NCBI GenBank assembly: GCA_020746105.1
Contig: CM036617.1
Span: 145,220,491 to 145,284,490 of the forward strand
Direction of reading: 5' to 3'
DNA length: 64,000 bases
Source: Trogon surrucura
Lineage: Eukaryota; Chordata; Aves; Trogoniformes; Trogonidae
The translations under genes and the position numbers were made by a program. Shown here one piece after another: positions 29,132 to 53,072 of this stretch (position 1 is its first letter; the number at the start of each line of letters is the position of its first letter). Under the pieces are notes generated by a model. That model was not told where the DNA came from and made no database searches. It saw only the letters and a program-made list of their open reading frames with translations.

Positions 29132-30037
29132 ACCAGGTGAGCGATCTGCTCAGCCTGGTGGCTGAGCTGAAGGAGGAAGTAGAAAGGCTGAGGAGCATTA
29201 GGGAGTCGGAGAGAGAGATAGATCGGTGGAGTCAGTTCCTGAATGGCGAGCAGCAAGCTCCGCAAAGAGCTGAATATCCCCCCACCTCTGGCCATCAGGC
29301 AAAAGGGGGGGGACCTAAAGGATAGGGAGGAGTGGAAGCAGGTGCCTGCCAGGAGAGGAAGGAAAATCCTTGCCCGGCCTCCATCACCTGCCCGGTTGCC
29401 CCTGCGAAACAGGTATGGGGCTCTAGACAATGAGAGCCAGGCCAAGGAAGAGTCAGTGGAGGGTTCACCCATAGGGCTGTCTAGTCACTTGGATACACGC
29501 GTTAGGACTTCTTCATCTAAGAAAAAAAGGAGGGTAATCGTAATTGGAGACTCCCTCCTGAGGGGAACAGAGGGCCCTGTCTGCCGCCCTGATCCGACCC
29601 ACAGGGAAGTCTGCTGCCTCCCTGGGGCCCGAGTTAAGGATGTTATCAAGAAGCTTCCTGGTCTGGTCAAACCCACGGACTATTACCCGCTTTTGGTTAT
29701 GCAGATCGGTAATGATGAGATAGTAGAGAGACGGCCAGAAGCAATCAAAAGGGACTTTAGGGCACTGGGGCGGATGCTAGAAGGATCAGGCGCACAGGTT
29801 GTGTTTGCCTCTATTCCTTCAATTATGAGGAAAAATAGTGGAAGGTTTGACAAAGTGCAGCAGATTAATACTTGGCTAAAGGGGTGGTGCCAGCGGTCTA
29901 GCTTTGGATTTTTTAACCATGGGGAGATCTACAGGGCACCTGGTCTACTGAAACAAGCTGGGGTTCAAATGACACAAAGGGAAAAAAGGATCCTTGGTCA
30001 CGAGCTAGCGGGACTCATAGAGCGTTCTTTAAACTAG
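29132..30037 (+). pseudogene. CR1 ORF1, coiled coil plus SGNH/GDSL esterase
   Basis: The first part, in one frame, is a short coiled coil ([18 protein letters not shown]). After an eight-G run near 29308-29315 the reading continues in the frame open from 29243. A basic patch (SSKKKRRVIVIGDSLLRG) leads into the SGNH hydrolase fold. Visible motifs are GDS (nucleophile Ser, about 29549) and GND in MQIGNDEI. Where CR1 ORF1 proteins usually have a D-x-x-H block before LT.RGK, this copy reads AGVQMTQREK, so the catalytic Asp and His appear replaced. The N-terminal PHD-like part of some CR1 ORF1 proteins is absent because the element is truncated. Confidence 0.75.
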
Positions 30038-30039
30038 AT

Positions 30040-32800: not shown

Positions 32801-33014
32801 AGAAGAAACTTCTTCTCAGTGAGGGTGACGGAGCCCTGGAACAGGCTGCCCAGAGAGGTTGTGGAGTCTCCTTCTCTGGAGACATTCAAGACCTGCCTGG
32901 ACACGTCCCTGTGTAGCATAATCTAGGCATTCCTGCTCTGGCAGGGGGATTGGGACTTGATGATCTTTCGAGGTCCCTTCCATCCCTAACATTCTGTGAT
33001 CTGTGATTCTGTGA

Positions 33015-34044: not shown

Positions 34045-34131
34045 GTCCCAAAAAAGCCCGGAAAAGGAGCTGTGCCACTCCTACCTGGGGTGAAGAACAG
34101 GAGAAGACAACTTGTCCCAGTCAACAGCGCT
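34045..34131 (+). repeat. Diverged partial copy of the array-unit start
   Basis: CAGTCCCAAAAAAGCCCGGA and the following ~45 bases resemble the unit start at 34137 (CAGTCCAAAAAAAAACCCAG). The spacing is ~92 bp and a CR1 tail precedes it, just as at the true unit junctions. It looks like an older fragment of the same repeat at the left edge of the array. Confidence 0.6.
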
Positions 34132-34841
34132 CCATGGCAGTCCAAAAAAAAACCCAGAAAAGGAGCAGTGCTGCTCCAACCTGGCCTGACAAACTGTTCT
34201 TCTGCACTGTAAAAACAGGAGGCAGGAACAGCAGCAGCCCAGGGAGAGGTGCCAAAGAGCCAACAGGCACCCACCCCGCACAGCAGGCCCCAACAGCCCC
34301 AGGGCTCTCCTTAGAGGCCCTTATAGACCGAGCACATGGGAAGGAACTCTGGATCACCTGACCCACCGTCTCCTGCCCATAGGCACAGCTGCCCCTGCTC
34401 CTCCCTTGCGGGAGAGGAGCCCCAGAGAACTTCAGTCCTGGGGCTCTCGAAGGAGGCCAATGATGCTCCTGACCGAGACGCTTCTCCCAGAGTGTCTGCG
34501 GCGAGGGGAACCCGTGCGAGGAGACGACCTGTCGGAGCCATGGGTGCTTGCCAGTTTGCAGCTCCCTTCTGGGTCTTGCTGGGCCTGGGGACGATGGTGG
34601 GAAAGAACTGTGAGGGCGGTATCTGCAATTCGTTCTATCTGTGACCTGTCCGATGCAAAACAGAGCCTCAGCACAGCCTTGGGAATGGAGTTAGAATGTT
34701 TTGTATGAGCAGCGAGAAGTGAGCGGTAACGCTGATTTACCGAGTATCCTTTACCCTAAGATCTTGGAGCCGGGATCACAAATATTTCCGAGCAGCGCTG
34801 GGCTGTTGGACCAGTGATTTTCCATTGCTTTTGGCTTGCAG

Positions 34842-35161
34842 AAGAAGTTTCCCAGGAAAGGTGACAATCCCTTCATGGTCGGTCTGGACAGAGCAAGACT
34901 TGGTTTTTCTCAGCATCTTTCACACAAGTGTCATGGTTGTGGAGCAGGAAACGCCCAGGAAGCTGCAACCTACGAGGCTGAAAATCACATGGGACACTGG
35001 GACACAAAAATTGGTGGACACAGCCAGCACCATTGGTTTGCCAAAGCCCTTCTGGAATGGGGAGCTTGAAGAGATGATGCACTCTCCACCATTTGCAGAG
35101 TAGGAAAGGTTTATTGGCCTTTTTCTCAAAGGGAACAGGCTCTGTGATACATCTGTATCTG
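34842..35161 (+). other. Possible 5' leader exon of unit 1 RING gene
   Basis: A polypyrimidine stretch ending GGCTTGCAG (34833-34841) and a GTGAGT donor at 35162 bracket 320 bases. A second possible intron, 35694-35815 (GAG|GTGAGC to TTTTGTAG), lies just before the coding exon. Both are sequence-based guesses. Equivalent sites are in units 2 and 3. Confidence 0.35.
35110..35115 (-). promoter_or_regulatory. Antisense AATAAA in unit 1, conserved in the remnant
   Basis: Plus-strand TTTATT gives AATAAA on the minus strand. The same hexamer with similar flanks is kept at 50326-50331 in the diverged remnant. It could end an antisense transcript or an old element. Confidence 0.3.
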
Positions 35162-35903
35162 GTGAGTCCTCTTGCCTTACGTGCCTGGAGACGTGTGCCC
35201 CAGGCGGAGCGCCCTGACGGGGCCCTGGGAAGATTGGACCAAGGCCTCGGTGAGGGCTGTGTAACGCCGATGCCGAGCACGAGACAAGAGGTGCAGGGAC
35301 GAAGCGGGCAGTGGTGCTGCGGTAAGCCCAGAGGCCAGCGCTGGGGCGAGCGCCATGGTGGAGGCTGGCCCCCGGTGACGCCCCTGAGCGATGGGTTCTG
35401 TGGTTTCCAAGGGACGGGCCGTGAGGTCACCGAGCACCGGATTGTGAGGCGGCGGTCCTCGCCGCTTCTGCCGGGGCGCCGAGTGCCAGGCGGCTGGTTC
35501 GTGCCCGGACTTCAGCTGAGCAGGACGCGAGGCTGGAGTGCTGAGCGAGGCCTTGGTGCTGGTGGACGGACGGACTGGGGAGTTGCACCTTGCAGCTCTC
35601 TGTTCCCGACGCCAGAGCCGCCAGAGGATTTTCCCCGGCCCTGCCAGGTTCAGGCAGCCGGGGCACGCAGCACACACGCTCGCAGGAGCCGAGGTGAGCT
35701 GGGAGGGGAAGCCTCACCCTGGGGAGCAGGGAGGGAGACCCTCTTGAGGGACCTGGGCATTTCTTCCAGCCCTGCCCGCGCCAGCCAGTGACCGGGGCCT
35801 CTCTTTGTTTTGTAGCGCGACACCGGCTGCTGCGGCAGCGCTGGTGAGAGGGAGCGGCTCAACACCCCCAGCTCCCCCCAGCCCCCCGTGGAGAGCGGAG
35901 AGC

Positions 35904-36935
35904 ATGGCCAGCGAGCTGGGTGACCGCTGTCCCATCTGCCTGGACAGCTGGGAGGAGGCCAGCTATGTGCTGCCATGCCTCCACCGCTTCTGCTACCCCT
36001 GCATCTGGCGGTGGGTGGAGAGCAAGCGCGAGTGCCCCCTCTGCAGGAGGAGCATCACGTCCATCGTGCACTCGGTGCAGGCAGATGATGATTTTGAGGA
36101 GCGGGTCCTGACACCACCTGCTGCAGATGATGACCTTGAGGAGCGTGTCGGGACACCACCAGCGACACCTCCCGTCATCAGCCACCAGGCAGGAGCTCCA
36201 GCTGCCCACAGCCCTGCGGAGGCACAGCCGCAGCCTGCGGGGATGGTGCCCGAGCCTCCTCTGCGCGGCCTCCCGCCCAGCACCTGGGCATCCCTTTTCT
36301 GGGAGCACCCAGCTCTCCTCCAGCCCATCCTGACCTGGGTGCGTCAGGAGGTGGAACGCCTCTTTGAGGGCCAGAGAGCATGGGCAGCGATGGTGGAGAG
36401 TCTAGTCCACGCCCTCCTGGTGGTCTATGGCCTGGACGAAGACCTACTGGTCCAGCCGCTGGGGCTCACCCTCGCAAACCACTCAGCGGCCATTGTGCGT
36501 GGGATGATCCAGGTCGCCGAGGAACGGTGCAGCGGGGAGGCCCGCCGTCTGCTGGGCCTGGAGGACGGCCATGCTGCCAGGAGGCCGCAGAGCGGCCCCA
36601 TGGCTGTCCCCGGCCCTGCCGCCTCCCGAGGACGCTCTCCCACACCTGGACCGGCCCCCTCCGGCAGCCCTGAAGGGTCCAGTGGGGAAGAGCTGCCCAG
36701 CTCCTCAGCAGCTGCCCTTCGGGGGCGTCCCGCCAGCCCTCCCTCTGCCCCCATTCCTACCCTTGGGGAGCCAGAAGAGCCCCAGGAGGAGCCCGAGGCG
36801 GCCGCGGCTCTTCCATCTACTTCCAGCCAGGGCAGGGCACGTGCCCCTGGGGGGCCACGGCGACCCCCGAAGAGGAGGGCCGGCAGATCCGAGGCCTCTT
36901 CTCCGGCCAAGAAGAGGCCGCCTCGCCGGCACTAG
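35904..36935 (+). CDS. TOPORS-like C3HC4 RING protein, copy 1
   Basis: 343 codons, MASELGDRCPICLD to the terminal RRH. The RING lies at residues 9-47 (C9, C12, C25, H27, C30, C33, C44, C47). It is followed by SIVHSVQADDDFEERVL, which from memory matches the residues after the TOPORS RING. Residues 128-225 (WASLFWEHPALLQPILTWV onward) resemble the helical region of TOPORS. The tail is Ser/Pro-rich and ends in a basic nuclear-localisation-like cluster (PPKRRAGR, AKKRPPRR). TOPORS is a nuclear ubiquitin and SUMO E3 ligase of about 1,045 residues, so this is a short form without the long Ser/Arg tail. I chose ATG 35904 because it has a good Kozak context (AGCATGG). The longer frame from 35805 starts inside a probable intron ending TTTTGTAG at 35815. 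Ligase activity is inferred from the intact zinc ligands. The open frame is kept in all three array copies. Confidence 0.8.
   Translation: MASELGDRCPICLDSWEEASYVLPCLHRFCYPCIWRWVESKRECPLCRRSITSIVHSVQADDDFEERVLTPPAADDDLEERVGTPPATPPVISHQAGAPAAHSPAEAQPQPAGMVPEPPLRGLPPSTWASLFWEHPALLQPILTWVRQEVERLFEGQRAWAAMVESLVHALLVVYGLDEDLLVQPLGLTLANHSAAIVRGMIQVAEERCSGEARRLLGLEDGHAARRPQSGPMAVPGPAASRGRSPTPGPAPSGSPEGSSGEELPSSSAAALRGRPASPPSAPIPTLGEPEEPQEEPEAAAALPSTSSQGRARAPGGPRRPPKRRAGRSEASSPAKKRPPRRH
36081..36164 (+). repeat. 42-bp in-frame tandem duplication in RING gene copy 1
   Basis: Two 42-bp units encode ADDDFEERVLTPPA and ADDDLEERVGTPPA just after the RING. The same duplication occurs at 42648-42731 and 49207-49290. 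Confidence 0.85.
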
Positions 36936-37044
36936 AAGAACGCCCCAGGCGCTGCCGAAACAAGGGCTGGGACAGCAGCGGAGAAATGCACCAGCCCCCA
37001 AGGGCTCCTGGCCCTCTAAGTCTGCTTAGCAGGCAGAGAAAGAA

Positions 37045-37050
37045 AATAAA
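37045..37050 (+). promoter_or_regulatory. Poly(A) signal of RING gene copy 1
   Basis: AATAAA lies 110 bp after the stop codon, followed by a GTGTTA-type downstream stretch. The equivalent in unit 2 is 43612-43617. Copy 3 lacks it. Confidence 0.6.
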
Positions 37051-37280
37051 GACCTGAAAAGAGCAGAAAAAGTCTCAGTGTTACTAACAGCGCAGGAGGT
37101 CTTGCTGTCCCCACCCGTGCTGCTTCCTCCCCCTTTTGCCGGGGCCGTGCCCAGCGGCTCCTCTCCCTGCCCGCAGTGGAGCGCCACGGGGCTTCTTCCT
37201 CCCTCTGGTCTTGCAGAGCCTCGTTGCCCGGCTTGGGCTCTCCTGGGGCTGGACCTGTGCTCTCTCTGGGCCTCTCCCCT

Positions 37281-39135
37281 CACAGCGCTTTCTACCTGAA
37301 AGCCAATGTGGTTTCAGAGCCAACAGGAGTACCGCAGACATGGTATTTGTTCTCAGACAGCTGCAAGAGCAGTGCAGGGAACAGAACAAAGGACTTTCTG
37401 TAACTTTCCTTAACCTCATTAAAGCTTTTGACACTGTGAGCAGAAAAGGCCTGTGGCAGATTTTGGAACGTTTAGGATGTCCTCCCAAGTTCCTCAAAAT
37501 GATTATCCAGTTACACAAGGGGCAGCGCGGCCAAGTCAGATATGGCGATGCACTCTCTGAGCCCTTCCCAACAACCAATGGTGTGAAACAAGGTCGCGTT
37601 CTCACACCAACTCTGTTCACAATCTTCTTCAGCATGACACTCCAAAGGGCCACGGCAGACCTCAGTGAAGATAACGGCATCTTCATCTGTTACCGATGTT
37701 ACCGACGGTAACCTATTCAACCTAAGGCGACTGAAGGCCCACACTGTAGGGGAATTTCTTGTGGAGCAGGGGCGCGGTGCCCCTTTAAAGGTGTGGACAC
37801 CCCAGCTTAGGCCTAAACAAAGGCTCTGTCCTTGAAGCTGCCTCGGAACACAGGGAGGAGGAGGTTTTATCTGTTTTGTGGGAGCTTTGCGAGAGGCTTG
37901 GCTGGAGGTGCTGGCCCCGGGGGGAGAAGGCGGGGCAAGAGCCGCCTGCATTGGGCACTACCCAATAAAACACTGGCGCGTGTAAACCTGTATCTGACCA
38001 ACTCGGTTTTAGAGGCAGGCGCGTGGACGCTGCTTAACTGTATGTATTGAGCTGTCTGGAGCAATAAAGGGAGAACTACTTATAGCCATATCGGTGGGAT
38101 TTGTCGTTGTCTTGACCGGCTCTCCGACGGGACCCTCTTCGCCACACTAAGAGCTTAAATCACCTTGTCCACAAGCTGCTTTTTGCCGACGATGCCGCCC
38201 TCGTTGCTCGCACAGAAGGAGCTCTGCAGCGCTTAACGTCCTGTTTTGCAGAGGCTGCTGAGCTTTTTTGGGCTGGAAGTCAGCCTGAAGAAGACAGAAG
38301 TTCTTTACCAACCGGCACCTCAGGAAGACTCCCATCATCCCCACATCACCACGGGAAAATCAGAGCTTAAGTCAGTCCAGCAGTTCAACTATCTAGGAAG
38401 TATCATTTCCTCGGATGGTAAGATTGACAAAGAGATAGACAACAGGTTAGCAAAGGCATACAGAGCTTTTGGAAAACTCCTTAAAAGAGTTTGGTGCAAT
38501 AAACACCTGAAGAAAGGTACAAAGGTTAGTGTCTACAGAGCCATTGTACTGTCTACCGTTTTATATGGGTCTGAATCATGGGTCATCTACCGCCACCACC
38601 TGCGACTCCTCAAACGCTTCCATCAGCGCTGCCTCCGTACAATCCTAAACATCCACTAGACTGACTACGTGACTAATGTTACTGTCCCTGAACAGGCAGG
38701 GGTCACCAGTATTGAGGCCATGCTGCTGAGGACGCAGCTGCGCTGGGCAGGGCGCGTCTCCAGGATGGAGGATCACCGCCTCCCTAAGGTTGTGCTCTAT
38801 GGTGAACTCGCCACCGGCTGCCGCAACAGAGGAGCCCCAAAGAGGAGATACAAGGACTCCCTGAAACAATCCCTCAGTTTTGGCCGTATTGACTACCATC
38901 AGCGGTCCACTCTGGCCTCCAATCGGGACACATGGAGACACCCCATCCGTAATGCTGCTGCCTCCTTTGAGAACACATGTAGAATTAGTCTCAAGGAGAA
39001 AAGACAGCACAGAAAGAACCGTGCCTCGCCAATACCGCCTAAGGAGACTTTCAGCTGTGCCTTTTGCAACCGGACTTGCCTATCCCCTATCGGTCTTTTT
39101 AGTCATCAGTGCGTTTGTAGCAAGCGTGGGTAGAG
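37281..39135 (+). mobile_element. 5'-truncated RTE-like LINE in unit 1 (interrupted)
   Basis: Encodes RT from FLPESQCGFRANRSTADMVF through FLNLIKAFDTVS, NGVKQGRVLTPTLF and, after an insert at 37745-38147, LLFADDAALVA. The C-terminal part has NYLGSIISSDGKIDKEIDNR, VLYGSESWVIYRHHLRL and RWAGRVSRMEDHRLPK, then a CxxC...H..C-type finger (CAFCNRTCLSPIGLFSHQ). The endonuclease domain is missing. The RT motifs place it with RTE-like LINEs, and the exact clade is not resolved. A stop lies at 38657-38659 where the family reads on, so it is inactive. Birds are poor in non-CR1 LINEs; AviRTE is one known horizontally acquired RTE. Confidence 0.75.
37745..38147 (+). mobile_element. LTR-like insert (candidate solo LTR) inside the unit 1 RTE LINE
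   Basis: About 400 bp interrupts the RTE LINE. It begins TGTAGGGGAATTTC, contains two AATAAA hexamers in its second half, and ends near TTCGCCACA. A short CACAC-type direct repeat lies on both sides. The form suggests a solo LTR of an avian endogenous retrovirus, a fossil with no internal genes. The family is not identified. It predates the unit duplication because unit 2 has it at the same place. Confidence 0.5.
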
Positions 39136-39284
39136 CCCTTCCCATATGTTTTTTTGCGAAGCCTAACCATGATGAGTTCCAGTTCACAGCTGCAGGGCTT
39201 CAGGTTCCCTGGACAAAACTGGCAGCTCCCAGAAGCGCCACAAAGGCCACGAGAGGGTTGCGTGCCATTCTGCAGGCAGTTCTG

Positions 39285-39578
39285 GGCCCCACAACTTAAA
39301 AAGTGTGTGAAGGTGCTTGAATGCGTCCAGAGGAGGAGGGACACAAAGCTGGTGGAAGGGCTGGGAGACATGTCCTTTGGGAGGAGGAGGGGCTGAGGAC
39401 TTTGGGTTGGCCTAATTTGAAGAGAAGGAGGCTGTGGGGCAACCTCATTGCTCTCTACAGCTTCTTGAGGATGGGAAGTAGAGAGGGAGGTGCCGAGCTC
39501 TTCTCCCTGGGGCCCAGAGAGATGATGCCCGAGAAGAGTTCAAAGCTGCATCAGGGGAGCTTTAGACTGGACATGCTG
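39285..39578 (+). repeat. Old CR1 3' fragment in unit 1
   Basis: Plus-strand CR1-type blocks: CAGTTCTGGGCCCCACAACT, AAGAGAAGGAGGCTGTGGGG and a GGAGCTTTAGACTGGACATG end. This is an older subfamily than the element that follows it. Confidence 0.65.
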
Positions 39579-40690
39579 TTTCCCACAGCATCCTCACAGC
39601 TAAACTGAGGGAATGTGGTCTGATCGGGTAGTGCGGCGGACGGTGAACTAACTGAAGGAAAGAGATCGGAGAGCTGTGGTCAATGGGGCAGAGTCTAGTT
39701 GGAGGTCTGTATTTAGCGGAGTCCCTCCACGAGAGGGGTGGGTACTGGGACCAGTGCTATTCAATAGAGTCATCAACACCCTGGATGAGGGAACAGAGTG
39801 CTGTGTCAGCAAGTTTGCTGGTGACACCGAACTGGGAGGAGTGGCTGACACACCAGAAGGCTCTGCTGCCATGTAGTGAGACCTAAAGCGGCTGGAGAGT
39901 GGAGCGGGGAGAAATGTAACGAAAAGCCACGTGGGCAAGTGTAGAGCCCTGCGTCTGGGAAAGGACAATCCCATGTAGCAGTATAGGTTGGGGACTGACC
40001 TGCTGGAGAGCAGAGTAGGGGAAAGGGACCTTGGGTTCCTGGTGGACAGCAGGATGCCCATGATCCAGGAATGTGCCCTTTCGGCCAGGAAGGGCAATGG
40101 CACCCTGGGGTGTATTAGAAGGGGTGTGGCTAGCAGGTGGAGAGAGGTTCTCTTCCCTCCTCTCTGACTTGGTGAGGCCAAATCTGGAAAACTGTGTCCA
40201 GTTCTGGGCCCCTCAGTTCAAGAAGGACAGGGAACTGCTTGAATGAGTCCAGCACAGAGCCACAAAGATGATGAAGGGAGTGGAACATCTCCTTTATGAG
40301 GAAAGGCTGAGGGAGCTGCATCTCTTTAGCTTGGAGAAGCGGAGCCTGACGGGTGACCTCAGGAACGTTTATAAATATGTTAAGGGCAAGTGTCACGAGG
40401 ACAGAGCCAGCCTCTTCTCAGTGATGTCCAATGATAGGAGAAGGGGCAACAGGTTCAAACTGGAGCATAGGAGGTTCCACGTAAACATAAGGAAAAGCTT
40501 TTTCACTGTGAGGGTGACAGAGCACTGGAACAGGATGCCCAGAGAGGTTGTGGAGTCTCCTTCTCTGGAGACATTCAAAACCTGCCCAGACACTTTCCTG
40601 CGTCACCTACTCTAGGTGATCCTGCTCTGGCAGCGGGACTGAACTCGATGATGTCTTGAGGTGCCTTCCAACCTCTACCGTTCTGTGATT
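39579..40690 (+). repeat. CR1 RT-to-tail fragment ending unit 1
   Basis: 1.1-kb 5'-truncated CR1 from CCCACAGCATCCTCACAGCT to the terminal CTGTGATT. The RT frame is decayed: FAGD stands in place of FADD and stops are present. Its C-terminal frame at 40268-40615 is still open ([15 protein letters not shown]-like). Its end is the junction with unit 2. Confidence 0.85.
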
Positions 40691-42470
40691 CCATGGCAGT
40701 CCAAAAAAAACCCAGAAAAGGAGCAGTGCTGCTCCAACCTGGCCTGACAAACTGTTCTTCTGCACTGTAAAAACAGGAGGCAGGAACAGCATCAGCCCAG
40801 GGAGAGGTGCCAAAGAGGCAACAGGCACCCACCCCGCACAGCAGGCCCCAACAGCCCCAGGGCTCTCCTTAGAGGCCCTTATAGACCGAGCACATGGGAA
40901 GGAACTCTGCATCACCTGACCCACCGTCTCCTGCCCATAGGCACAGCTGCCCCTGCTCCTCCCTTGCGGGAGAGGAAGCCCAGAGAACTTCAGTCCTGGG
41001 GCTCTCGAAGGAGGCCAATGATGCTCCTGACCGAGACGCTTCTCCCAGAGTGTCTGCGGTGAGGGAAACCCGTGTGAGGAGACGACCTGTCGGAGCCATG
41101 TCGGAGCCATGGGTGCTTGCCAGTTTGCAGCTCCCTTCTGGGTCTTGCTGGGCCTGGGGACGATGGTGGGAAAGAACTGTGAGGGGTATCTGCAATTCGT
41201 TCTATCCGTGACGTGTCCGATGCAAAACAGAGCCTCAGCACAGCCTTGGGAATGGAGTTAGAATGTTTTGTATGAGCAGCGAGAAGTGAGCGGTAACGCT
41301 GATTTACCGAGTATCCTTTACCCTAAGATCTTGGAGCCGGGATCACAAATATTTCCGAGCAGCGCTGGGCTGTTGGACCAGTGATTTTCCATTGCTTTTG
41401 GCTTGCAGAAGAAGTTTCCCGGGAAAGGTGACAATCCCTTCGTGGTCGGTCTGGACAGACCAAGACTTGGTTTTTCTCAGCATCTTTCACACAAGTGTCA
41501 TGGTTGTGGAGCAGGAAACGCCCAGGAAGCTGCAACCTACGAGGCTGAAAATCACATGGGACACTGGGACACAAAAATTGGCGGACACAGCCAGCACCAT
41601 TGGTTTGCCAAAGCCCTTCTGGAATGGGGAGCTTGAAGAGATGATGCACTCTCCACCATTTGCAGAGTAGGAAAGGTTTATTGGCCTTTTTCTCAAAGGG
41701 AACAGGCTCTGTGATACATCTGTATCTGGTGAGTCCTCTTGCCTTACGTGCCTGGAGCCGTGTGCCCCAGGCGGAGCGCCCTGACGGGGCCCTGGGAAGA
41801 TTGGACCAAGGCCTCGGTGAGGGCTGTGTAACGCCGATGCCGAGCACGAGACAAGAGGTGCAGGGACGAAGCGGGCAGTGGTGCTGCGGTAAGCCCAGAG
41901 GCCAGCGCTGGGGCGAGCGCCATGGTGGAGGCTGGCCCCCGGTGACGCCCCTGAGCGATGGGTTCTGTGGTTTCCAAGGGACGGGCCGTGAGGTCACCGA
42001 GCACCGGATTGTGAGGCGGCGGTCCTCGCCGCTTCTGCCGGGGCGCCGAGTGCCAGGCGGCTGGTTCGTGCCCGGACTTCAGCTGAGCAGGACGCGAGGC
42101 TGGAGTGCTGAGCGAGGCCTTGGTGCTGGTGGACGGACGGACTGGGGAGTTGCACCTTGCAGCTCTCTGTTCCCGACGCCAGAGCCGCCAGAGGATTTTC
42201 CCCGGCCCTGCCAGGTTCAGGCAGCCGGGGCACGCAGCACACACGCTCGCAGGAGCCGAGGTGAGCTGGGAGGGGAAGCCTCACCCTGGGGAGCAGGGAG
42301 GGAGACCCTCTTGAGGGACCTGGGCATTTCTTCCAGCCCTGCCCGCGCCAGCCAGTGACCGGGGCCTCTCTTTGTTTTGTAGCGCGACACCGGCTGCTGC
42401 GGCAGCGCTGGTGAGAGGGAGCGGCTCAACACCCCCAGCTCCCCCCAGCCCCCCGTGGAGAGCGGAGAGC

Positions 42471-43502
42471 ATGGCCAGCGAGCTGGGTGACCGCTGTCCC
42501 ATCTGCCTGGACAGCTGGGAGGAGGCCAGCTATGTGCTGCCATGCCTCCACCGCTTCTGCTACCCCTGCATCTGGCGGTGGGTGGAGAGCAAGCGCGAGT
42601 GCCCCCTCTGCAGGAGGAGCATCACGTCCATCGTGCACTCGGTGCAGGCAGATGATGATTTTGAGGAGCGGGTCCTGACACCACCTGCTGCAGATGATGA
42701 CCTTGAGGAGCGTGTCGGGACACCACCAGCGACACCTCCCGTCATCAGCCACCAGGCAGGAGCTCCAGCTGCCCACAGCCCTGCGGAGGCACAGCCGCAG
42801 CCTGCGGGGATGGTGCCCGAGCCTCCTCTGCGCGGCCTCCCGCCCAGCACCTGGGCATCCCTTTTCTGGGAGCACCCAGCTCTCCTCCAGCCCATCCTGA
42901 CCTGGGTGCGTCAGGAGGTGGAACGCCTCTTTGAGGGCCAGAGAGCATGGGCAGCGATGGTGGAGAGTCTAGTCCACGCCCTCCTGGTGGTCTATGGCCT
43001 GGACGAAGACCTACTGGTCCAGCCGCTGGGGCTCACCCTCGCAAACCACTCAGCGGCCATTGTGCGTGGGATGATCCAGGTCGCCGAGGAACGGTGCAGC
43101 GGGGAGGCCCGCCGTCTGCTGGGCCTGGAGGACGGCCATGCTGCCAGGAGGCCGCAGAGCGGCCCCATGGCTGTCCCCGGCCCTGCCGCCTCCCGAGGAC
43201 GCTCTCCCACACCTGGACCGGCCCCCTCCGGCAGCCCTGAAGGGTCCAGTGGGGAAGAGCTGCCCAGCTCCTCAGCAGCTGCCCTTCGGGGGCGTCCCGC
43301 CAGCCCTCCCTCTGCCCCCATTCCTACCCTTGGGGAGCCAGAAGAGCCCCAGGAGGAGCCCGAGGCGGCCGCGGCTCTTCCATCTACTTCCAGCCAGGGC
43401 AGGGCACGTGCCCCTGGGGGGCCACGGCGACCCCCGAAGAGGAGGGCCGGCAGATCCGAGGCCTCTTCTCCGGCCAAGAAGAGGCCGCCTCGCCGGCACT
43501 AG
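42471..43502 (+). CDS. TOPORS-like C3HC4 RING protein, copy 2
   Basis: 343 codons; the protein is identical to copy 1 as far as I can compare. All eight RING zinc ligands, the 14-residue duplication, the TOPORS-like helical region and the basic tail are present. The upstream acceptor (TTTTGTAG ending 42382) and the AATAAA at 43612-43617 are also preserved. Nothing suggests decay. Function is inferred as a nuclear E3 ligase, as for copy 1. Confidence 0.8.
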   Translation: MASELGDRCPICLDSWEEASYVLPCLHRFCYPCIWRWVESKRECPLCRRSITSIVHSVQADDDFEERVLTPPAADDDLEERVGTPPATPPVISHQAGAPAAHSPAEAQPQPAGMVPEPPLRGLPPSTWASLFWEHPALLQPILTWVRQEVERLFEGQRAWAAMVESLVHALLVVYGLDEDLLVQPLGLTLANHSAAIVRGMIQVAEERCSGEARRLLGLEDGHAARRPQSGPMAVPGPAASRGRSPTPGPAPSGSPEGSSGEELPSSSAAALRGRPASPPSAPIPTLGEPEEPQEEPEAAAALPSTSSQGRARAPGGPRRPPKRRAGRSEASSPAKKRPPRRH

Positions 43503-43611
43503 AAGAACGCCCCAGGCGCTGCCGAAACAAGGGCTGGGACAGCAGCGGAGAAATGCACCAGCCCCCAAGGGCTCCTGGCCCTCTAAGTCTGCTTAGCAGG
43601 CAGAGAAAGAA

Positions 43612-43617
43612 AATAAA
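43612..43617 (+). promoter_or_regulatory. Poly(A) signal of RING gene copy 2
   Basis: AATAAA 110 bp after the stop, in the same context as copy 1. Confidence 0.6.
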
Positions 43618-43847
43618 GACCTGAAAAGAGCAGAAAAAGTCTCAGTGTTACTAACAGCGCAGGAGGTCTTGCTGTCCCCACCCGTGCTGCTTCCTCCCCC
43701 TTTTGCCGGGGCCGTGCCCAGCGGCTCCTCTCCCTGCCCGCAGTGGAGCGCCACGGGGCTTCTTCCTCCCTCTGGTCCTGCAGAGCCTCGTTGCCCGGCT
43801 TGGGCTCTCCTGGGGCTGGACCTGTGCTCTCTCTGGGCCTCTCCCCT

Positions 43848-45703
43848 CACAGCGCTTTCTACCTGAAAGCCAATGTGGTTTCAGAGCCAACAGGAGTACC
43901 GCAGACATGGTATTTGTTCTCAGACAGCTGCAAGAGCAGTGCAGGGAACAGAACAAAGGACTTTCTGTAACTTTCCTTAACCTCATTAAAGCTTTTGACA
44001 CTGTGAGCAGAAAAGGCCTGTGGCAGATTTTGGAACGTTTAGGATGTCCTCCCAAGTTCCTCAAAATGATTATCCAGTTACACAAGGGGCAGCGCGGCCA
44101 AGTCAGATATGGCGATGCACTCTCTGAGCCCTTCCCAACAACCAATGGTGTGAAACAAGGTCGCGTTCTCACACCAACTCTGTTCACAATCTTCTTCAGC
44201 ATGACACTCCAAAGGGCCACGGCAGACCTCAGTGAAGATAACGGCATCTTCATCTGTTACCGATGTTACCGACGGTAACCTATTCAACCTAAGGCGACTG
44301 AAGGCCCACACTGTAGGGGAATTTCTTGTGGAGCAGGGGCGCGGTGCCCCTTTAAAGGTGTGGAGACAACCCAGCTTAGGCCTAAACAAAGGCTCTGTCC
44401 TTGAAGCTGCCTCGGAACACAGGGAGGAGGAGGTTTTATCTGTTTTGTGGGAGCTTTGCGAGAGGCTTGGCTGGAGGTGCTGGCCCCGGGGGGAGAAGGC
44501 GGGGCAAGAGCCGCCTGCATTGGGCACTACCCAATAAAACACTGGCGCGTGTAAACCTGTATCTGACCAACTCGGTTTTAGAGGCAGGCGCGTGGACGCT
44601 GCTTAACTGTATGTATTGAGCTGTCTGGAGCAATAAAGGGAGAACTACTTATAGCCATATCGGTGGGATTTGTCGTTGTCTTGACCGGCTCTCCGACGGG
44701 ACCCTCTTCGCCACACTAAGAGCTTAAATCACCTTGTCCACAAGCTGCTTTTTGCCGACGATGCCGCCCTCGTTGCTCGCACAGAAGCAGCTCTGCAGCG
44801 CTTAACGTCCTGTTTTGCAGAGGCTGCTGAGCTTTTTTGGGCTGGAAGTCAGCCTGAAGAAGACAGAAGTTCTTTACCAACCGGCACCTCAGGAAGACTC
44901 CCATCATCCCCACATCACCACGGGAAAATCAGAGCTTAAGTCAGTCCAGCAGTTCAACTATCTAGGAAGTATCATTTCCTCGGATGGTAAGATTGACAAA
45001 GAGATAGACAACAGGTTAGCAAAGGCATACAGAGCTTTTGGAAAACTCCTTAAAAGAGTTTGGTGCAATAAACACCTGAAGAAAGGTACAAAGGTTAGTG
45101 TCTACAGAGCCATTGTACTGTCTACCGTTTTATATGGGTCTGAATCATGGGTCATCTACCGCCACCACCTGCGACTCCTCAAACGCTTCCATCAGCGCTG
45201 CCTCCGTACAATCCTAAACATCCACTAGACTGACTACGTGACTAATGTTACTGTCCCTGAACAGGCAGGGGTCACCAGTACTGAGGCCATGCTGCTGAGG
45301 ACGCAGCTGCGCTGGGCAGGGCGCGTCTCCAGGATGGAGGATCACCGCCTCCCTAAGGTTGTGCTCTATGGTGAACTCGCCACCGGCTGCCGCAACAGAG
45401 GAGCCCCAAAGAGGAGATACAAGGACTCCCTGAAACAATCCCTCAGTTTTGGCCGTATTGACTACCATCAGCGGTCCACTCTGGCCTCCAATCGGGACAC
45501 ATGGAGACACCCCATCCGTAATGCTGCTGCCTCCTTTGAGAACACATGTAGAATTAGTCTCAAGGAGAAAAGACAGCACAGAAAGAACCGTGCCTCGCCA
45601 ATACCGCCTAAGGAGACTTTCAGCTGTGCCTTTTGCAACCGGACTTGCCTATCCCCTATCGGTCTTTTAGTCATCAGTGCGTTTGTAGCAAGCGTGGGTA
45701 GAG
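43848..45703 (+). mobile_element. 5'-truncated RTE-like LINE in unit 2 (interrupted)
   Basis: Equivalent of 37281-39135, with the same truncation point, LTR-like insert and internal stop. One T fewer near 45667 changes the frame inside the C-terminal finger, after LSPIGL. It therefore descends from a single insertion copied with the unit. Confidence 0.75.
44312..44716 (+). mobile_element. LTR-like insert (candidate solo LTR) in unit 2
   Basis: Same element and position as 37745-38147, carried along by the tandem duplication. About 405 bp, no internal genes. A fossil. Confidence 0.5.
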
Positions 45704-45852
45704 CCCTTCCCATATGTTTTTTTGCGAAGCCTAACCATGATGAGTTCCAGTTCACAGCTGCAGGGCTTCAGGTTCCCTGGACAAAACTGGCAGCTCCCAG
45801 AAGCGCCACAAAGGCCACGAGAGGGTTGCGTGCCATTCTGCAGGCAGTTCTG

Positions 45853-46146
45853 GGCCCCACAACTTAAAAAGTGTGTGAAGGTGCTTGAATGCGTCCAGAG
45901 GAGGAGGGACACAAAGCTGGTGGAAGGGCTGGGAGACATGTCCTTTGGGAGGAGGAGGGGCTGAGGACTTTGGGTTGGCCTAATTTGAAGAGAAGGAGGC
46001 TGTGGGGCAACCTCATTGCTCTCTACAGCTTCTTGAGGATGGGAAGTAGAGAGGGAGGTGCCGAGCTCTTCTCCCTGGGGCCCAGAGAGATGATGCCCGA
46101 GAAGAGTTCAAAGCTGCATCAGGGGAGCTTTAGACTGGACATGCTG
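45853..46146 (+). repeat. Old CR1 3' fragment in unit 2
   Basis: Equivalent of 39285-39578. Confidence 0.65.
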
Positions 46147-47258
46147 TCTCCCACAGCATCCTCACAGCTAAACTGAGGGAATGTGGTCTGATCGGGTAGT
46201 GCGGCGGACGGTGAACTAACTGAAGGAAAGAGATCGGAGAGCTGTGGTCAATGGGGCAGAGTCTAGTTGGAGGTCTGTATTTAGCGGAGTCCCTCCACGA
46301 GAGGGGTGGGTACTGGGACCAGTGCTATTCAATAGAGTCATCAACACCCTGGATGAGGGAACAGAGTGCTGTGTCAGCAAGTTTGCTGGTGACACCGAAC
46401 TGGGAGGAGTGGCTGACACACCAGAAGGCTCTGCTGCCATGTAGTGAGACCTAAAGCGGCTGGAGAGTGGAGCGGGGAGAAATGTAACGAAAAGCCACGT
46501 GGGCAAGTGTAGAGCCCTGCGTCTGGGAAAGGACAATCCCATGTAGCAGTATAGGTTGGGGACTGACCTGCTGGAGAGCAGAGGAGGGGAAAGGGACCTT
46601 GGGTTCCTGGTGGACAGCAGGATGCCCATGATCCAGGAATGTGCCCTTTCGGCCAGGAAGGCCAATGGCACCCTGGGGTGTATTAGAAGGGGTGTGGCTA
46701 GCAGGTGGAGAGAGGTTCTCTTCCCTCCTCTCTGACTTGGTGAGGCCAAATCTGGAAAACTGTGTCCAGTTCTGGGCCCCTCAGTTCAAGAAGGACAGGG
46801 AACTGCTTGAATGAGTCCAGCACAGAGCCACAAAGATGATGAAGGGAGTGGAACATCTCCTTTATGAGGAAAGGCTGAGGGAGCTGCATCTCTTTAGCTT
46901 GGAGAAGCGGAGCCTGACGGGTGACCTCAGGAACGTTTATAAATATGTTAAGGGCAAGTGTCACGAGGACAGAGCCAGCCTCTTCTCAGTGATGTCCAAT
47001 GATAGGAGAAGGGGCAACAGGTTCAAACTGGAGCATAGGAGGTTCCACGTAAACATAAGGAAAAGCTTTTTCACTGTGAGGGTGACAGAGCACTGGAACA
47101 GGATGCCCAGAGAGGTTGTGGAGTCTCCTTCTCTGGAGACATTCAAAACCTGCCCAGACACTTTCCTGCGTCACCTACTCTAGGTGATCCTGCTCTGGCA
47201 GCGGGACTGAACTCGATGATGTCTTGAGGTGCCTTCCAACCTCTACCGTTCTGTGATT
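46147..47258 (+). repeat. CR1 RT-to-tail fragment ending unit 2
   Basis: Equivalent of 39579-40690, with the same 5' truncation and tail. It joins CCATGGCAGTCC of unit 3 at 47259. Confidence 0.85.
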
Positions 47259-50108
47259 CCATGGCAGTCCAAAAAAAACCCAGAAAAGGAGCAGTGCTGC
47301 TCCAACCTGGCCTGACAAACTGTTCTTCTGCACTGTAAAAACAGGAGGCAGGAACAGCATCAGCCCAGGGAGAGGTGCCAAAGAGCCAACAGGCACCCAC
47401 CCCGCACAGCAGGCCCCAACAGCCCCAGGGCTCTCCTTAGAGGCCCTTATAGACCGAGCACATGGGAAAGAACTCTGGATCACCTGACCCACCGTCTCCT
47501 GCCCATAGGCACAGCTGCCCCTGCTCCTCCCTTGCGGGAGAGGAGCCCCAGAGAACTTCAGTCCTGGGGCTCTCGAAGGAGGCCAATGATGCTCCTGACC
47601 GAGACGCTTCTCCCAGAGTGTCTGCGGCGAGGGAAACCCGTGTGAGGAGACGACCTGTCGGAGCCACGGGCGCTTGCCAGTTTGCAGCTCCCTTCTGGGT
47701 CTTGCTGGGCCTGGGGACGATGGTGGGAAAGAACTGTGAGGGCGGTATCTGCAATTCGTTCTATCTGTGACCTGTCCGATGCAAAACAGAGCCTCAGCAC
47801 AGCCTTGGGAATGGAGTTAGAATGTTTTGTATGAGCAGCGAGAAGTGAGCGGTAACGCTGATTTACCGAGTATCCTTTACCCTAAGATCTTGGAGCCGGG
47901 ATCACAAATATTTCCGAGCAGCGCTGGGCTGTTGGACCAGTGATTTTCCATTGCTTTTGGCTTGCAGAAGAAGTTTCCCGGGAAAGGTGACAATCCCTTC
48001 GTGGTCGGTCTGGACAGACCAAGACTTGGTTTTTCTCAGCATCTTTCACACAAGTGTCATGGTTGTGGAGCAGGAAACGCCCAGGAAGCTGCAACCTACG
48101 AGGCTGAAAATCACATGGGACACTGGGACACAAAAATTGGCGGACACAGCCAGCACCATTGGTTTGCCAAAGCCCTTCTGGAATGGGGAGCTTGAAGAGA
48201 TGATGCACTCTCCACCATTTGCAGAGTAGGAAAGGTTTATTGGCCTTTTTCTCAAAGGGAACAGGCTCTGTGATACATCTGTATCTGGTGAGTCCTCTTG
48301 CCTTACGTGCCTGGAGCCGTGTGCCCCAGGCGGAGCGCCCTGATGGGGCCCTGGGAAGATTGGACCAAGGCCTCGGTGAGGGCTGTGTAACGCCGATGCC
48401 GAGCACGAGACAAGAGGTGCAGGGACGAAGCGGGCAGTGGTGCTGCGGTAAGCCCAGAGGCCAGCGCTGGGGCGAGCGCCATGGTGGAGGCTGGCCCCCA
48501 GTGACGCCCCTGAGCGATGGGTTCTGTGGTTTCCAAGGGACGGGCCGTGAGGTCACCGAGCACCGGATTGTGAGGCGGCGGTCCTCGCCGCTTCTGCCGG
48601 GGCGCCGAGTGCCAGCCGGCTGGTTCGTGCCCGGACTTCAGCTGAGCAGGACGCGAGGCTGGAGTGCTGAGCGAGGCCTTGGTGCTGGTGGACGGACGGA
48701 CTGGGGAGTTGCACCTTGCAGCTCTCTTTTCCCGACGCCAGAGCCGCCAGAGGATTTTCCCCGGCCCTGCCAGGTTCAGGCAGCCGGGGCACGCAGCACA
48801 CACGCTCGCAGGAGCCGAGGTGAGCTGGGAGGGGAAGCCTCACCCTGGGGAGCAGGGAGGGAGACCCTCTTGAGGGACCTGGGCATTTCTTCCAGCCCTG
48901 CCCGCGCCAGCCAGTGACCGGGGCCTCTCTTTGTTTTGTAGCGCGACACCGGCTGCTGCGGCAGCGCTGGTGAGAGGGAGCGGCTCAACACCCCCAGCTC
49001 CCCCCAGCCCCCCATGGAGAGCGGAGAGCATGGCCAGCGAGCTGGGTGACCGCTGTCCCATCTGCCTGGACAGCTGGGAGGAGGCCAGCTATGTGCTGCC
49101 ATGCCTCCACCGCTTCTGCTACCCCTGCATCTGGCGGTGGGTGGAGAGCAAGCGCGAGTGCCCCCTCTGCAGGAGGAGCATCACGTCCATCGTGCACTCG
49201 GTGCAGGCAGATGATGATTTTGAGGAGCGGGTCCTGACACCACCTGCTGCAGATGATGACCTTGAGGAGCGTGTCGGGACACCACCAGCGACACCTCCCG
49301 TCATCAGCCACCAGGCAGGAGCTCCAGCTGCCCACAGCCCTGCGGAGGCACAGCCGCAGCCTGCGGGGATGGTGCCCGAGCCTCCTCTGCGCGGCCTCCC
49401 GCCCAGCACCTGGGCATCCCTTTTCTGGGAGCACCCAGCTCTCCTCCAGCCCATCCTGACCTGGGTGCGTCAGGAGGTGGAACGCCTCTTTGAGGGCCAG
49501 AGAGCATGGGCAGCGATGGTGGAGAGTCTAGTCCACGCCCTCCTGGTGGTCTATGGCCTGGACGAAGACCTACTGGTCCAGCCGCTGGGGCTCACCCTCG
49601 CAAACCACTCAGCGGCCATTGTGCGTGGGATGATCCAGGTCGCCGAGGAACGGTGCAGCGGGGAGGCCCGCCGTCTGCTGGGCCTGGAGGACGGCCATGC
49701 TGCCAGGAGGCCGCAGAGCGGCCCCATGGCTGTCCCCGGCCCTGCCGCCTCCCGAGGACGCTCTCCCACACCTGGACCGGCCCCCTCCGGCAGCCCTGAA
49801 GGGTCCAGTGGGGAAGAGCTGCCCAGCTCCTCAGCAGCTGCCCTTCGGGGGCGTCCCACCAGCCCTCCCTCTGCCCCCATTCCTACCCTTGGGGAGCCAG
49901 AAGAGCCCCAGGAGGAGCCCGAGGCGGCCGCGGCTCTTCCATCTACTTCCAGCCAGGGCAGGGCACGTGCCCCTGGGGGGCCACGGCGACCCCCGAAGAG
50001 GAGGGCCGGCAGATCCGAGGCCTCTTCTCCGGCCAAGAAGAGGCCGCCTCGCCGGCACTAGAAGAACGCCCCAGGCGCTGCCGAAACAAGGGCTGGGACA
50101 GCAGCGGA
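47259..50108 (+). repeat. Tandem array unit 3 (truncated, ~2,850 bp)
   Basis: Matches the first 2,850 bp of units 1 and 2 and stops 47 bp after the RING-gene stop codon, at GGACAGCAGCGGAG. The poly(A) signal, RTE LINE, LTR-like insert and CR1 tail are all absent. Confidence 0.95.
49030..50061 (+). CDS. TOPORS-like C3HC4 RING protein, copy 3
   Basis: 343 codons with one visible residue change against copies 1 and 2 (Ala to Thr in the Pro/Ser-rich region, RGRPTSPPSA). RING, duplication, helical region and basic tail are intact. Two things set it apart. A G-to-A change makes an extra ATG at 49014, 16 bases upstream and out of frame. The normal 3' UTR with its poly(A) signal is lost because the unit ends 47 bp past the stop; the nearest AATAAA downstream is at 50416-50421. 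The protein could be made, but probably with different efficiency. Confidence 0.78.
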   Translation: MASELGDRCPICLDSWEEASYVLPCLHRFCYPCIWRWVESKRECPLCRRSITSIVHSVQADDDFEERVLTPPAADDDLEERVGTPPATPPVISHQAGAPAAHSPAEAQPQPAGMVPEPPLRGLPPSTWASLFWEHPALLQPILTWVRQEVERLFEGQRAWAAMVESLVHALLVVYGLDEDLLVQPLGLTLANHSAAIVRGMIQVAEERCSGEARRLLGLEDGHAARRPQSGPMAVPGPAASRGRSPTPGPAPSGSPEGSSGEELPSSSAAALRGRPTSPPSAPIPTLGEPEEPQEEPEAAAALPSTSSQGRARAPGGPRRPPKRRAGRSEASSPAKKRPPRRH

Positions 50109-50129
50109 GTAATGTGCTAGTTCCCATGG

Positions 50130-50346
50130 GCACCTTTCACACATCTTTGCTGGTTGTGTTGTAGGAACACTCAGGAAGGTGTGACCTACGAGTCTGAGAA
50201 TCGCACGAGAAACCTGGACACAAAAATTTGCAGGCACAGCCAGCAGCATTTGTTTACTAAGGTCCTTCTGGAATGGGGAGCTTGAAGAGATGATGCATTA
50301 TCCACCATTTAGATAGAAAGAAAAGTTTATTGACATTTTTTCTAAA
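50130..50346 (+). repeat. Diverged remnant of the array unit at its right edge
   Basis: Aligns with 34908-35135 of unit 1 at roughly four of five bases by eye. Shared blocks are GGACACAAAAATT, CTTCTGGAATGGGGAGCTTG and AAGAGATGATGCA, and the antisense AATAAA at 50326-50331 is kept. It follows unit 3 almost at once, so it is an older copy or the ancestral sequence against which the array ended. Confidence 0.8.
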
Positions 50347-53072
50347 AGTAGACATTCTCTATTATACATTGTTATAAATATTTATAAATATTCTGTGGGA
50401 CTTAAGACCCACTCAAATAAATAAATAAATATTTCATTAAAAATATGTAATGCTTTCTTTCTAGCCGGTGATTGCCAGCATCTCCATTGAATAATTATTT
50501 TGACATTTCTATACCCTTTTTAAATAGTTATAAATATGGGTTTTTTTATGCAAAATCCACTTCCATTTATTCTTCTCTTAGGGACTAAATCCGTTGGCTA
50601 CCAATGGTGTGAGCAACCTTTTTGATTTTATTTTAATGTGTGAATGTAGAGATTGTATAGAGAATTAACCCTGCCAACATTTTCCATCCAGGTTCGGTAT
50701 GGACTGATATGGAATTTTCACAATTCAAATTGTCATAGGTCCATTGACTTGTACTCCTACAGTACCCTGTGGAGTTTAAAACAATTTATGCAGGATGAAA
50801 ACTTTGCTTGTGTAATTTCTGTCCGTCATTCTCAAGGAGCAAAAGCCAGGAAGAATAGTATAGGAATTAAGTAAGATTATTTAACTTGCACATATAAGTA
50901 AGATCACGCCTCTTCACTGCATAGAATCAAGGTAAAATTAATTCTGTATTTTGAAAAATAAAATACACAACTGTCTGCCTATTCTACAGTTCTCTTAAAT
51001 CCATTAGAATCACTGCTTTCCTTGTGAATCTAATAAAAAAATATGAAAAGTTTAGAGGATGGAAAACAGCAAAATGTGGAACAGAACTCTAGCTATAATC
51101 CTAACCATTTGGCTTCTCTGTCGATGCTAAGAATTTACATTACTTAGGAATCACTCTGCACAGGAAAACTATTTTAACAGCAGGATCAGGCCCCAGGACC
51201 TTTCTATTGTAGCAATATGGGTGTTGTAGATAAGGAGATATTGTGTATATACGCATGTATAGGGGAAAAAAATGCTGTCAGCAGGAGAGACAGTGTGGTA
51301 AATCAAAAATAATTTCAATGAAAGCAAGAAACACAGGAGCTTATTTTGATTTTGTGACATTGTTGTAACTCCAGGGGCTTCAGTGAATTATTACATGAGA
51401 GAGAGAAAAGAACAGAACCAGAATCTAGCCTGATGTCTTTTGGATTATTGCTACGAGCACACTTGGGACAAACGTACTATTTTCAGATTGTTGTCAGGCT
51501 GTTAGAAATACTAATAAACAAACCAGAAGAATCTGCATCTTGACATGCAAAAAATGCTCGCACTCCCCAAAATAAAAAACTCTTCTCAGATATCTACCAC
51601 ACTGGATTTTTGTGCAGCTCATTGGTACCTTGCAATTGATTTCTGCAGAATACATCAAGAACAACTTTTTCAAAACCACACGAGTTAAAGATCACAGGAA
51701 GATCAAAACAAAATGAAAAAAGGGAGAAAAATAACTGTGTACAAAATTTTCAGAGTCCTTGTGCAAGTAAATATAGCTCATTAAAACCAATCAAGTTATA
51801 CTGACTTCTACCAGCTAAAAATTTGACACTTAAATTACAATAAAAAGCTGTGCTCTGCAGATATCACATATTAACTAAAGATTGGTAAACTTCAGATGTA
51901 TACATAGAAGTTAGACTCTGATAAGTAGACTTAACCATAACATCTACCAATCTAGGGAAAAGATTTTGTCAACATTAGAGATCTCCTGATTGATATTAAT
52001 TTCACTCTTATGTCTGTGACCTCATCAGAACTGAATAGAAACGTGGATGCTAAACTTAGATTCTCCTTCTCTAAATACAAACCAAATCTCAACTCATTAG
52101 ATGAGTGTCCATGAGCTATTAATATTTGATGCCTATAACGTACTTTTTTTTGCACTTTTTCCCCCGTACAGTTCAGCAGTGTGCAAAAAAAAAAGCCATC
52201 CTGTTTAAAGCACTACTGATTATTAGTAATCCTGATACTTCTCTTAGAGTTGGAAATGTGCAAAACTAATGAATGTCTCTACCTTTGATTTCCATATTGT
52301 GATGCTGAAGTTTAACAAATACAGAAGTGTGATAGAGAAGCACTTGAAAGACAGTAAGACACTCATCTTTTTATCCCAAACCTCAGCTTGGGTTCGATAA
52401 GTGTCAGAAATTACTCTTTCTACACAAGACCATTTGATCCTGTCTTGGTGTCCCATCAGTTACTCCAGTCTTCCATGTATACTGCTCTGGTAACAGCAGA
52501 ATGGTCACATTTTGATTTGTTTGAGCATGAAGAGACTGAAGCTCCAACTTAACAGCTAGAAACAATATAATACGTAATAATATAATATAGATAATAACAT
52601 ATATTATAACATATATATAATATATATTATTATGTATAAAATAATATAATAATATAGTATATAATAACACACCATAAGTTGTGTCTCTGTTGGAATCTTG
52701 GATGCTCCAGGTCCCTTCCCACTTACATCAGTCATGCAACATCAGTTTCTCGTTTCATCCAAGTGATTTCTTTTTATCACCAATGCATACTTAAAGTGAT
52801 TCAGACCCTAAAATATTTGGTTTGTATTAATCTTTCCAAAAAAAGTTTCTCTGTTTTCAGTACAGCAAAGCCCCAATTGGAAAATGTCCAACTTGGGGTT
52901 TTTTTTTGGTAAACTGTTACCTCTAAGTACAAAATTTGAAATTAACGATTTTTTCCCAATGTCTTCCATGTTTCTAAATAGCTGTTTTGACATTCAGACT
53001 GAGCATGCTAGGCAGTTCCTTTTGTCTGTTATACTCACCCATGTCTTCAGTTTGCAAGTGGTGGGCCCACAG
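50347..53072. other. AT-rich intergenic DNA downstream of FGF23
   Basis: No exon recognised. Part is probably the FGF23 3' UTR, read on the minus strand, though I see no clear AATAAA close to the stop. An (AAAT)n run lies at 50415-50431. Confidence 0.5.
52562..52672. repeat. AT-rich TATAATA-type low-complexity tract
   Basis: Imperfect TATAATA and ATAT repeats over about 110 bp with almost no G or C. Confidence 0.85.

Follow-up and report, generated by a model that had tools for sequence, protein, structure and literature searches.

The closest described relative of the genes treated here is TOPORS, which has been described as a SUMO-targeted ubiquitin ligase (PMC11402782) and which lies on the Z chromosome in chicken (PMC1876622). 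We have analyzed a stretch of 64,000 nucleotides from Trogon surrucura (assembly GCA_020746105.1, contig CM036617.1, positions 145,220,491 to 145,284,490, forward strand; "the window" below), which carries a tandem array of a short TOPORS-like RING gene. The array turns out to be one local group of a large family of short TOPORS kin, in which the RING is constrained across the wider sets of members while the region that follows it often changes fast among close copies. Such a pattern is best read as that of a fast-turning family that probably encodes nuclear E3 ligases. The name Topors-like is already present in annotation. One row of a chicken liver table names an 'E3 ubiquitin-protein ligase Topors-like' (PMC7563548), which suggests the same or a related gene, the likeness being by name alone, and one duplicated gene of the pea aphid is called Topors-like as well (PMC7475028). 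Topors is further mentioned in duck gonads (PMC9643717) and appears in gene lists from a study of migratory restlessness (PMC11439032). Our search for literature on TOPORS in birds, on Z or in expanded Topors-like families, outside which most subscription papers fell, found no paper describing a family of this kind.

The array and its kinship to TOPORS

Self-comparison of the window aligns positions 34131-43555 with 40690-50114 at 99.3% identity. Together with the alignment of the units, this gives two complete units and a partial third, each with an open frame of 343 codons, as claimed in an earlier note on this DNA, whose limits for the array (34132-50108) agree with ours (34131-50114) within a few bases. 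The units, the genes and the embedded remnants of long interspersed nuclear elements (LINEs) are as follows.

34131..40690, forward strand: array unit 1, 6560 bp (self-BLAST and alignment)
40691..47257, forward strand: array unit 2, 6567 bp (self-BLAST and alignment)
47258..50114, forward strand: array unit 3, partial, 2857 bp, ending 53 bp past the stop codon
35904..36935, forward strand: TOPORS-like short RING gene, copy 1, 343 codons and stop
42471..43502, forward strand: gene copy 2, 343 codons and stop, protein the same as that of copy 1
49030..50061, forward strand: gene copy 3, 343 codons and stop, one residue (A to T) different
37136..37708, forward strand: reverse-transcriptase remnant in unit 1, repeated in unit 2 (PF00078, E 8e-16)
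39578..40689, forward strand: LINE remnant in unit 1, repeated in unit 2, about 81% identical to 31888-33000

All eight RING zinc ligands are readable in each of the three window proteins, and the Pfam families that match the window protein above cut-offs are RING families only (best zf-C3HC4_2, E 9e-14). Between units 1 and 2, 22 of 6554 aligned bases are different, none of them within the 1032 bases of the coding frame, and the window has no runs of N. Chance is excluded as the source of this likeness because the identity spans 6.5 kb. The differences are unevenly spread, with 15 among the 1466 bases of the first 1.47 kb and seven among the 5088 elsewhere (Fisher p 5.6e-6), which fits homogenization of part of the unit. 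The proposal that the array was amplified or homogenized recently is thus borne out by the unit identity of about 99.3% and by the identical proteins of copies 1 and 2, and the LINEs were indeed duplicated along with the unit, as self-comparison and the PF00078 match indicate.

The relationship to TOPORS, which the earlier note drew from motif similarity, is supported by profile comparison. Contig C67 carries a 1009-residue open frame (L031), the sole TOPORS-like frame of that length seen, which we take to be the genome's own TOPORS from its sequence features and because it lies on the probable Z. A profile built from 50 short members (48 distinct proteins, those under 280 residues excluded) matches the RING of this frame with 88.7 bits, and over the RING and the 18 residues that follow 28 of 57 positions are identical. 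The post-RING region alone matches TOPORS with 37.7 bits (E 1.8e-9 when scaled to a set of 20,000), a score reached by none of 500 shuffles of the same sequence, the best of which gave 2.9 bits, and hhalign assigns this region a probability of 96.2. Since the RING and the post-RING region match separately, the homology extends across two domains and goes beyond a resemblance of RINGs. Both the short family and TOPORS have the RING near the N-terminus, followed by a similar stretch (SIVHSVQADDDFEE in one, SIFHTIRAEDDFKE in the other) and then by the post-RING domain, and both have a splice-acceptor-like site directly upstream of the coding exon. The post-RING region, presumably the one called PWI, is matched by no Pfam model, either in the window protein or in TOPORS itself.

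Compared with TOPORS, the window protein is a stripped form, as had been supposed from a roughly threefold difference in length. It has 343 residues against 1009, and the many copies of the short family stand against the one full-length frame. A simple pattern test found no motif resembling a SUMO-interacting motif (SIM) in the window protein, whereas TOPORS has such motifs at three places, and with 4 RS/SR pairs against 46 in TOPORS the window protein has no RS-rich region by our criterion. SUMO targeting is not expected of a protein that lacks a SIM-like motif; the window protein may be a ubiquitin ligase nonetheless. In the 50-member set, which was selected with a RING pattern (the ligands plus the CxIC isoleucine) and in which all 50 members therefore have the ligands by construction, a loose SIM pattern occurs after the RING in 22 members. 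Ten of these, forming clade D, have it in the tail, and clade D may have regained a SUMO-interacting motif. The remaining 12, including the close relatives L010-L014 on C1, the contig of the window, have it in or just after the post-RING domain. A basic motif of the xKRP type lies near the C-terminal end of 45 of the 50.

Family size, gene layout and history

A genome search with the window protein gave at least 145 matches, 118 of 612 first-look candidates having been scored. Merging matches less than 1 kb apart leaves at least 110 places, counting TOPORS, fragments and broken copies. They lie on C67 (at least 72), C1 (at least 15), C10 (at least 13), C7 (at least three), C68 and C69 (at least two each) and C6, C8 and C23 (at least one each), and with a 100-kb gap they form at least 54 physical groups. 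The expansion that the earlier note suspected is therefore large in this genome, but the array is one of these groups and not an isolated event. A second query, taken from a different subfamily, yielded 129 matches, four places being new by eye. From matching pairs of matches, C68 and C69 may carry the same sequence twice. C67, which is 87.9 Mb long, has three DM-domain matches within 100 kb, which we take to be the DMRT cluster and a sign of Z synteny; together with the position of TOPORS on the chicken Z, this makes C67 probably the Z chromosome. The loci that were read (L001-L076) are a part of the at least 110 places, and 19 of these 76 gave no row in the family set, either the RING pattern or a start codon not being found; L026-L028 are among them. 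Three long frames were missed by the RING pattern, of which L026 has all eight ligands and L027 and L028 have lost one.

The genes share a layout that extends beyond the coding frame into the 5' and 3' untranslated regions (UTRs).

35694..35815, forward strand: putative 5' UTR intron of copy 1, GAG followed by GTGAGCTG ... TTTTGTAG (alignment with the upstream regions of paralogs)
42261..42382, forward strand: putative 5' UTR intron of copy 2 (donor and acceptor patterns)
48820..48941, forward strand: putative 5' UTR intron of copy 3 (donor and acceptor patterns)
37045..37050, forward strand: AWTAAA, poly(A) signal-like, copy 1, 112 nt past the coding sequence
43612..43617, forward strand: AWTAAA, poly(A) signal-like, copy 2, 112 nt past the coding sequence

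The donor (GAG/GTGAGC) and the acceptor with its pyrimidine tract lie within 375 bp upstream of the start, and both patterns recur in 52 of 60 family upstream regions, although the patterns are loose and many near-identical copies are counted. Over these 375 bp the window copy is about 81-95% identical, per 75-base step, to four copies on C7 and C67, and beyond them the likeness drops at distances that differ by pair. Because these upstream regions keep the intron patterns, we set aside the idea that the family arose as a retrocopy. AWTAAA stands 92-112 nt past the coding sequence in 21 of 25 close paralogs. Copy 3 lacks the signal of copies 1 and 2 because its unit ends so soon after the stop codon, and its first AWTAAA lies 357 nt downstream, in unique sequence. 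The CRE-like (cAMP response element-like) motif TGAYRTCA has 24 sites in 19 hand-picked, related upstream regions, against 0.66 expected from first-order samples.

One member, L049 on C23, has no 5' UTR intron. It is perhaps an ancient processed copy, in which case a family member would have been transcribed in the germ line; its 3' flank shows no poly(A) tract by eye.

The tree, which has 51 rows, unites the 14 rows from C1 in a single clade (100/100) and the three from C7 in another. Within C1 the clusters at 147.56 Mb (100/100), at 146.40 Mb (99/94) and in the window (100/99) are supported clades, while the copies at 145.63 Mb (L004, L005, L007) are not resolved as one clade. The spacing of copies differs between these four sites (about 6.56, 4.7, 4.4 and 7.46 kb, in order along C1), which suggests separate amplification. 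L007 is a mosaic, its codons 121-200 being nearest to the 146.4 Mb cluster and its codons 81-120 and 241-343 nearest to its own neighbors. Three of the 15 C1 places are altered or broken (L008, L009, L029), and no indels were found in the coding frames of the five C1 pairs compared.

Several frames stand at the margin of the family. L043 has, beside a full member, a frame of 489 residues (L043:3716-5182, forward strand) with the post-RING domain and, by eye, no RING; matching frames of equal length lie at 9.449 and 9.457 Mb of C67. Loci L058-L062 (C67, 66.6-68.4 Mb) are a separate RING group whose match to the family is confined to the RING and what directly follows it, and two of them (L059, L060) have 194 residues, a RING and then an Arg/Pro-rich tail. 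On C10, nine places lie between 5.946 and 5.985 Mb at a spacing of mostly about 5 kb, among them L071 with a 214-residue frame. L036 and L047 (C67, 0.59 and 0.65 Mb) have glutamate runs of unequal length between the post-RING domain and the tail.

The array lies between the neighbors named in the earlier note. The frame at 18099-18554 matches PDB entry 3dcy (E 5e-30), whose title reads only 'regulator protein' and which we take to be TIGAR, and the frame at 53073-53570 matches FGF23 (E 9e-39). Beside the array, a LINE at 29243-32607 has open frames of 264, 363 and 477 residues, the longest of which contains a reverse-transcriptase domain (PF00078, E 1e-33); the match of the LINE remnant at 31888-33000 overlaps a reverse-transcriptase frame upstream of the array. 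Directly to the right of the array, positions 50130-50348 resemble the sequence that precedes the genes (about 79% identity) and are perhaps a relic of an older unit.

Constraint, fast change and gene conversion

Codon models were run with our own Python code on fixed trees for five sets: C1 (n = 11, without L002, L008 and L009), B (without L023 and L026), C, D (without L045) and AB, which overlaps B and combines members from C1, C7 and C67 (n = 15, without L002, L003, L008, L009, L011-L013, L016, L018, L023 and L026). In the wider sets the RING is clearly constrained, with an omega (dN/dS) of 0.23 in B, 0.23 in C and 0.30 in AB (p 7e-6 in AB and at most 1.1e-4 in all three), and the post-RING domain is constrained to a lesser degree (0.33 in B, 0.47 in C and 0.57 in AB, p 2.7e-4 in AB). 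The C-terminal tail looks neutral, its omega being 0.92-0.98 in four of the five sets; neither its values in AB (0.95) and C1 (0.97) nor those of the linker (1.49 and 1.37, respectively) are distinguishable from 1. When the C1 tree was simulated under neutrality, stop codons arose on average in 7.6 of 11 tips, and 2 of 300 runs were free of them, the real tips having been chosen as open frames. Simple decay is disfavored by the open frames and by the constraint on the RING in the wider sets.

Among close copies the post-RING domain behaves differently from the RING. Here the LINE remnant of the same array unit served as yardstick in ten pairs, which are drawn from five C1 copies and are not independent. 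Between the window copy and the cluster at about 147.58 Mb, the proportion of nonsynonymous differences (pN) in the post-RING domain is 0.179, that of synonymous differences (pS) 0.104 and the LINE divergence 0.071 (pN against LINE, p 9e-6). Against L007, pN is 0.129 and the LINE value 0.039 (p 3e-6), and against L006, of the 146.4 Mb cluster, the three values are 0.093, 0.056 and 0.042 (pN against LINE, p 0.004). Altogether, post-RING pN exceeds the LINE value with p < 0.05 in eight of the ten pairs and is clearly above pS in four. RING pN is significantly above the LINE value in no pair and significantly below it in one. Diversifying selection on the post-RING domain is thus suggested.

Several results weigh against a reading by function and selection. 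In the C1 set the omega of the whole frame is 0.91, that of the RING 0.46 (p 0.096) and that of the post-RING domain 0.93 by maximum likelihood, none of them being distinguishable from 1. The earlier note had counted a dN/dS near one against its own claim, and such a value is what the C1 frame as a whole shows, whereas the RING in the wider sets does not. In clade D the RING has an omega of 1.09, based on few changes and not significant; its post-RING value of 0.82 is not significant either. Two long open frames, L027 on C69 and L028 on C68, have a RING minus one zinc ligand. In two of the ten pairs, window-L005 (pN 0.048, LINE 0.065, p 0.4) and L007-L006, post-RING pN is not significantly above the LINE value. 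In five pairs pS is about equal to pN, as conversion predicts, and in window-L005 it is the higher of the two; in view of these six pairs, part of the post-RING excess looks like imported tracts. Model M2a is preferred over M1a in C1 when L007 is included (p 5.7e-8, several starts), but once this mosaic copy is taken out p becomes 0.08 for C1 and 5.9e-4 for the wider set. The window copies, finally, carry the CRE-like motif in altered, not intact form, which leaves the germ-line promoter as a hint.

Gene conversion confounds the readings of selection, and conversion among old paralogs alone, with no selection for change, is the rival that survives best, although we hold it to be rather unlikely. 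It would account for the mosaic structure of L007, the uneven differences between units 1 and 2, the fall of the M2a signal once L007 is removed and the joint rise of post-RING pS and pN in roughly half of the pairs; after that fall in C1 we gave up a strong claim of positive selection. Imported tracts should lift pN and pS alike, yet in the pairs of the window copy with the 147.5 Mb cluster and with L006 post-RING pN is above both pS and the LINE value.

Passive amplification under weak constraint is likewise a live rival, if a doubtful one. The copies would multiply together with LINE-rich segments as decaying duplicates with no present role, in line with the omega of the whole C1 frame, the tail values near 1, the zinc ligand lost in L027 and L028, the 3' UTR missing from window copy 3 and the copies that are fragments or broken (L029, L053 and L065-L070, for example). 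What such decay does not lead one to expect is the RING constraint in B, C and AB, the C1 frames that stay open when compared with neutral simulation, and an intron, a place of the poly(A) signal and a C-terminal motif common to members of which some are about 40% identical.

An assembly artefact, with two haplotypes set in tandem, is very improbable: the difference between units 1 and 2 falls within the range of heterozygosity, but there are three units with indels and clean junctions, and tandem copies with other spacings occur at three more C1 sites. Least credible of all is a captured viral gene of the ICP0 type, since the best RING match among solved structures is indeed that of equine herpesvirus 1 (E 3e-18), but no TOPORS chain is among the best 60 of 171 structure matches, so that the herpesvirus may simply be the nearest solved RING, while the splice-acceptor-like site is common to the family and TOPORS and the post-RING match to TOPORS led us to put this origin aside.

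Proposed account and comparison with known systems

We propose that the window genes belong, as intact copies, to a large family of short TOPORS paralogs with the following history and role, an account to which, taken as a whole, we give a little better than an even chance. A segment of TOPORS comprising the RING and the post-RING domain, with the splice acceptor just upstream, would have been duplicated, probably on Z, losing the SUMO-binding and RS-rich parts and gaining a short basic C-terminus. The short gene would then have multiplied on Z and on several autosomes. On C1, one founder would have given rise to four sites across 2.3 Mb, the window array being one, and each site would have expanded separately by unequal crossing-over and gene conversion between copies. 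In the protein, the RING would recruit the E2-ubiquitin conjugate, the post-RING domain would pick the substrate and the basic tail would hold the protein in the nucleus. Substrate choice is most plausibly assigned to the post-RING domain because it is the other part common with TOPORS and the fastest-changing one in C1, and the basic tail is what suggests a nuclear place. The fast change of the post-RING part beside a conserved RING suggests that the copies probably face a target that keeps changing. The setting would be a genetic conflict, with a sex chromosome, a transposon or a virus as the opponent, and perhaps in germ-line cells.

A conserved enzyme combined with a moving choice of target, in copies that multiply locally both on and off Z, fits such a genetic conflict. 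More tentatively, the whole may be a Z-born family of about 100 copies of a TOPORS-derived short E3 that lost SUMO targeting, carries a hypervariable substrate domain, spread to the autosomes, turns over by local arrays and conversion and serves in germ-line conflict, a reading that we consider rather improbable in this full form. If expressed, these genes would constitute a large set of bird ubiquitin ligases centered on Z, in the layout that is expected of conflict genes. If the account is true, a SUMO-dependent ligase has been cut down to a RING and a recognition domain and reused many times.

Two further known systems are close to the family. SUMO-targeted ligases of the RNF4 kind and TOPORS differ from the window protein, which lacks a SIM-like motif by the simple pattern test, but they have in common with it a basic residue that follows the last zinc ligand of the RING. 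This residue has a role in RING E3 ligases; it is R or K in 46 of the 50 members and R in the window protein. TRIM genes are multicopy, fast-evolving E3 families as well. Their second domain is another one, yet the short TOPORS paralogs share with them a constrained RING, a faster-changing part presumed to serve in recognition, and turnover in tandem.

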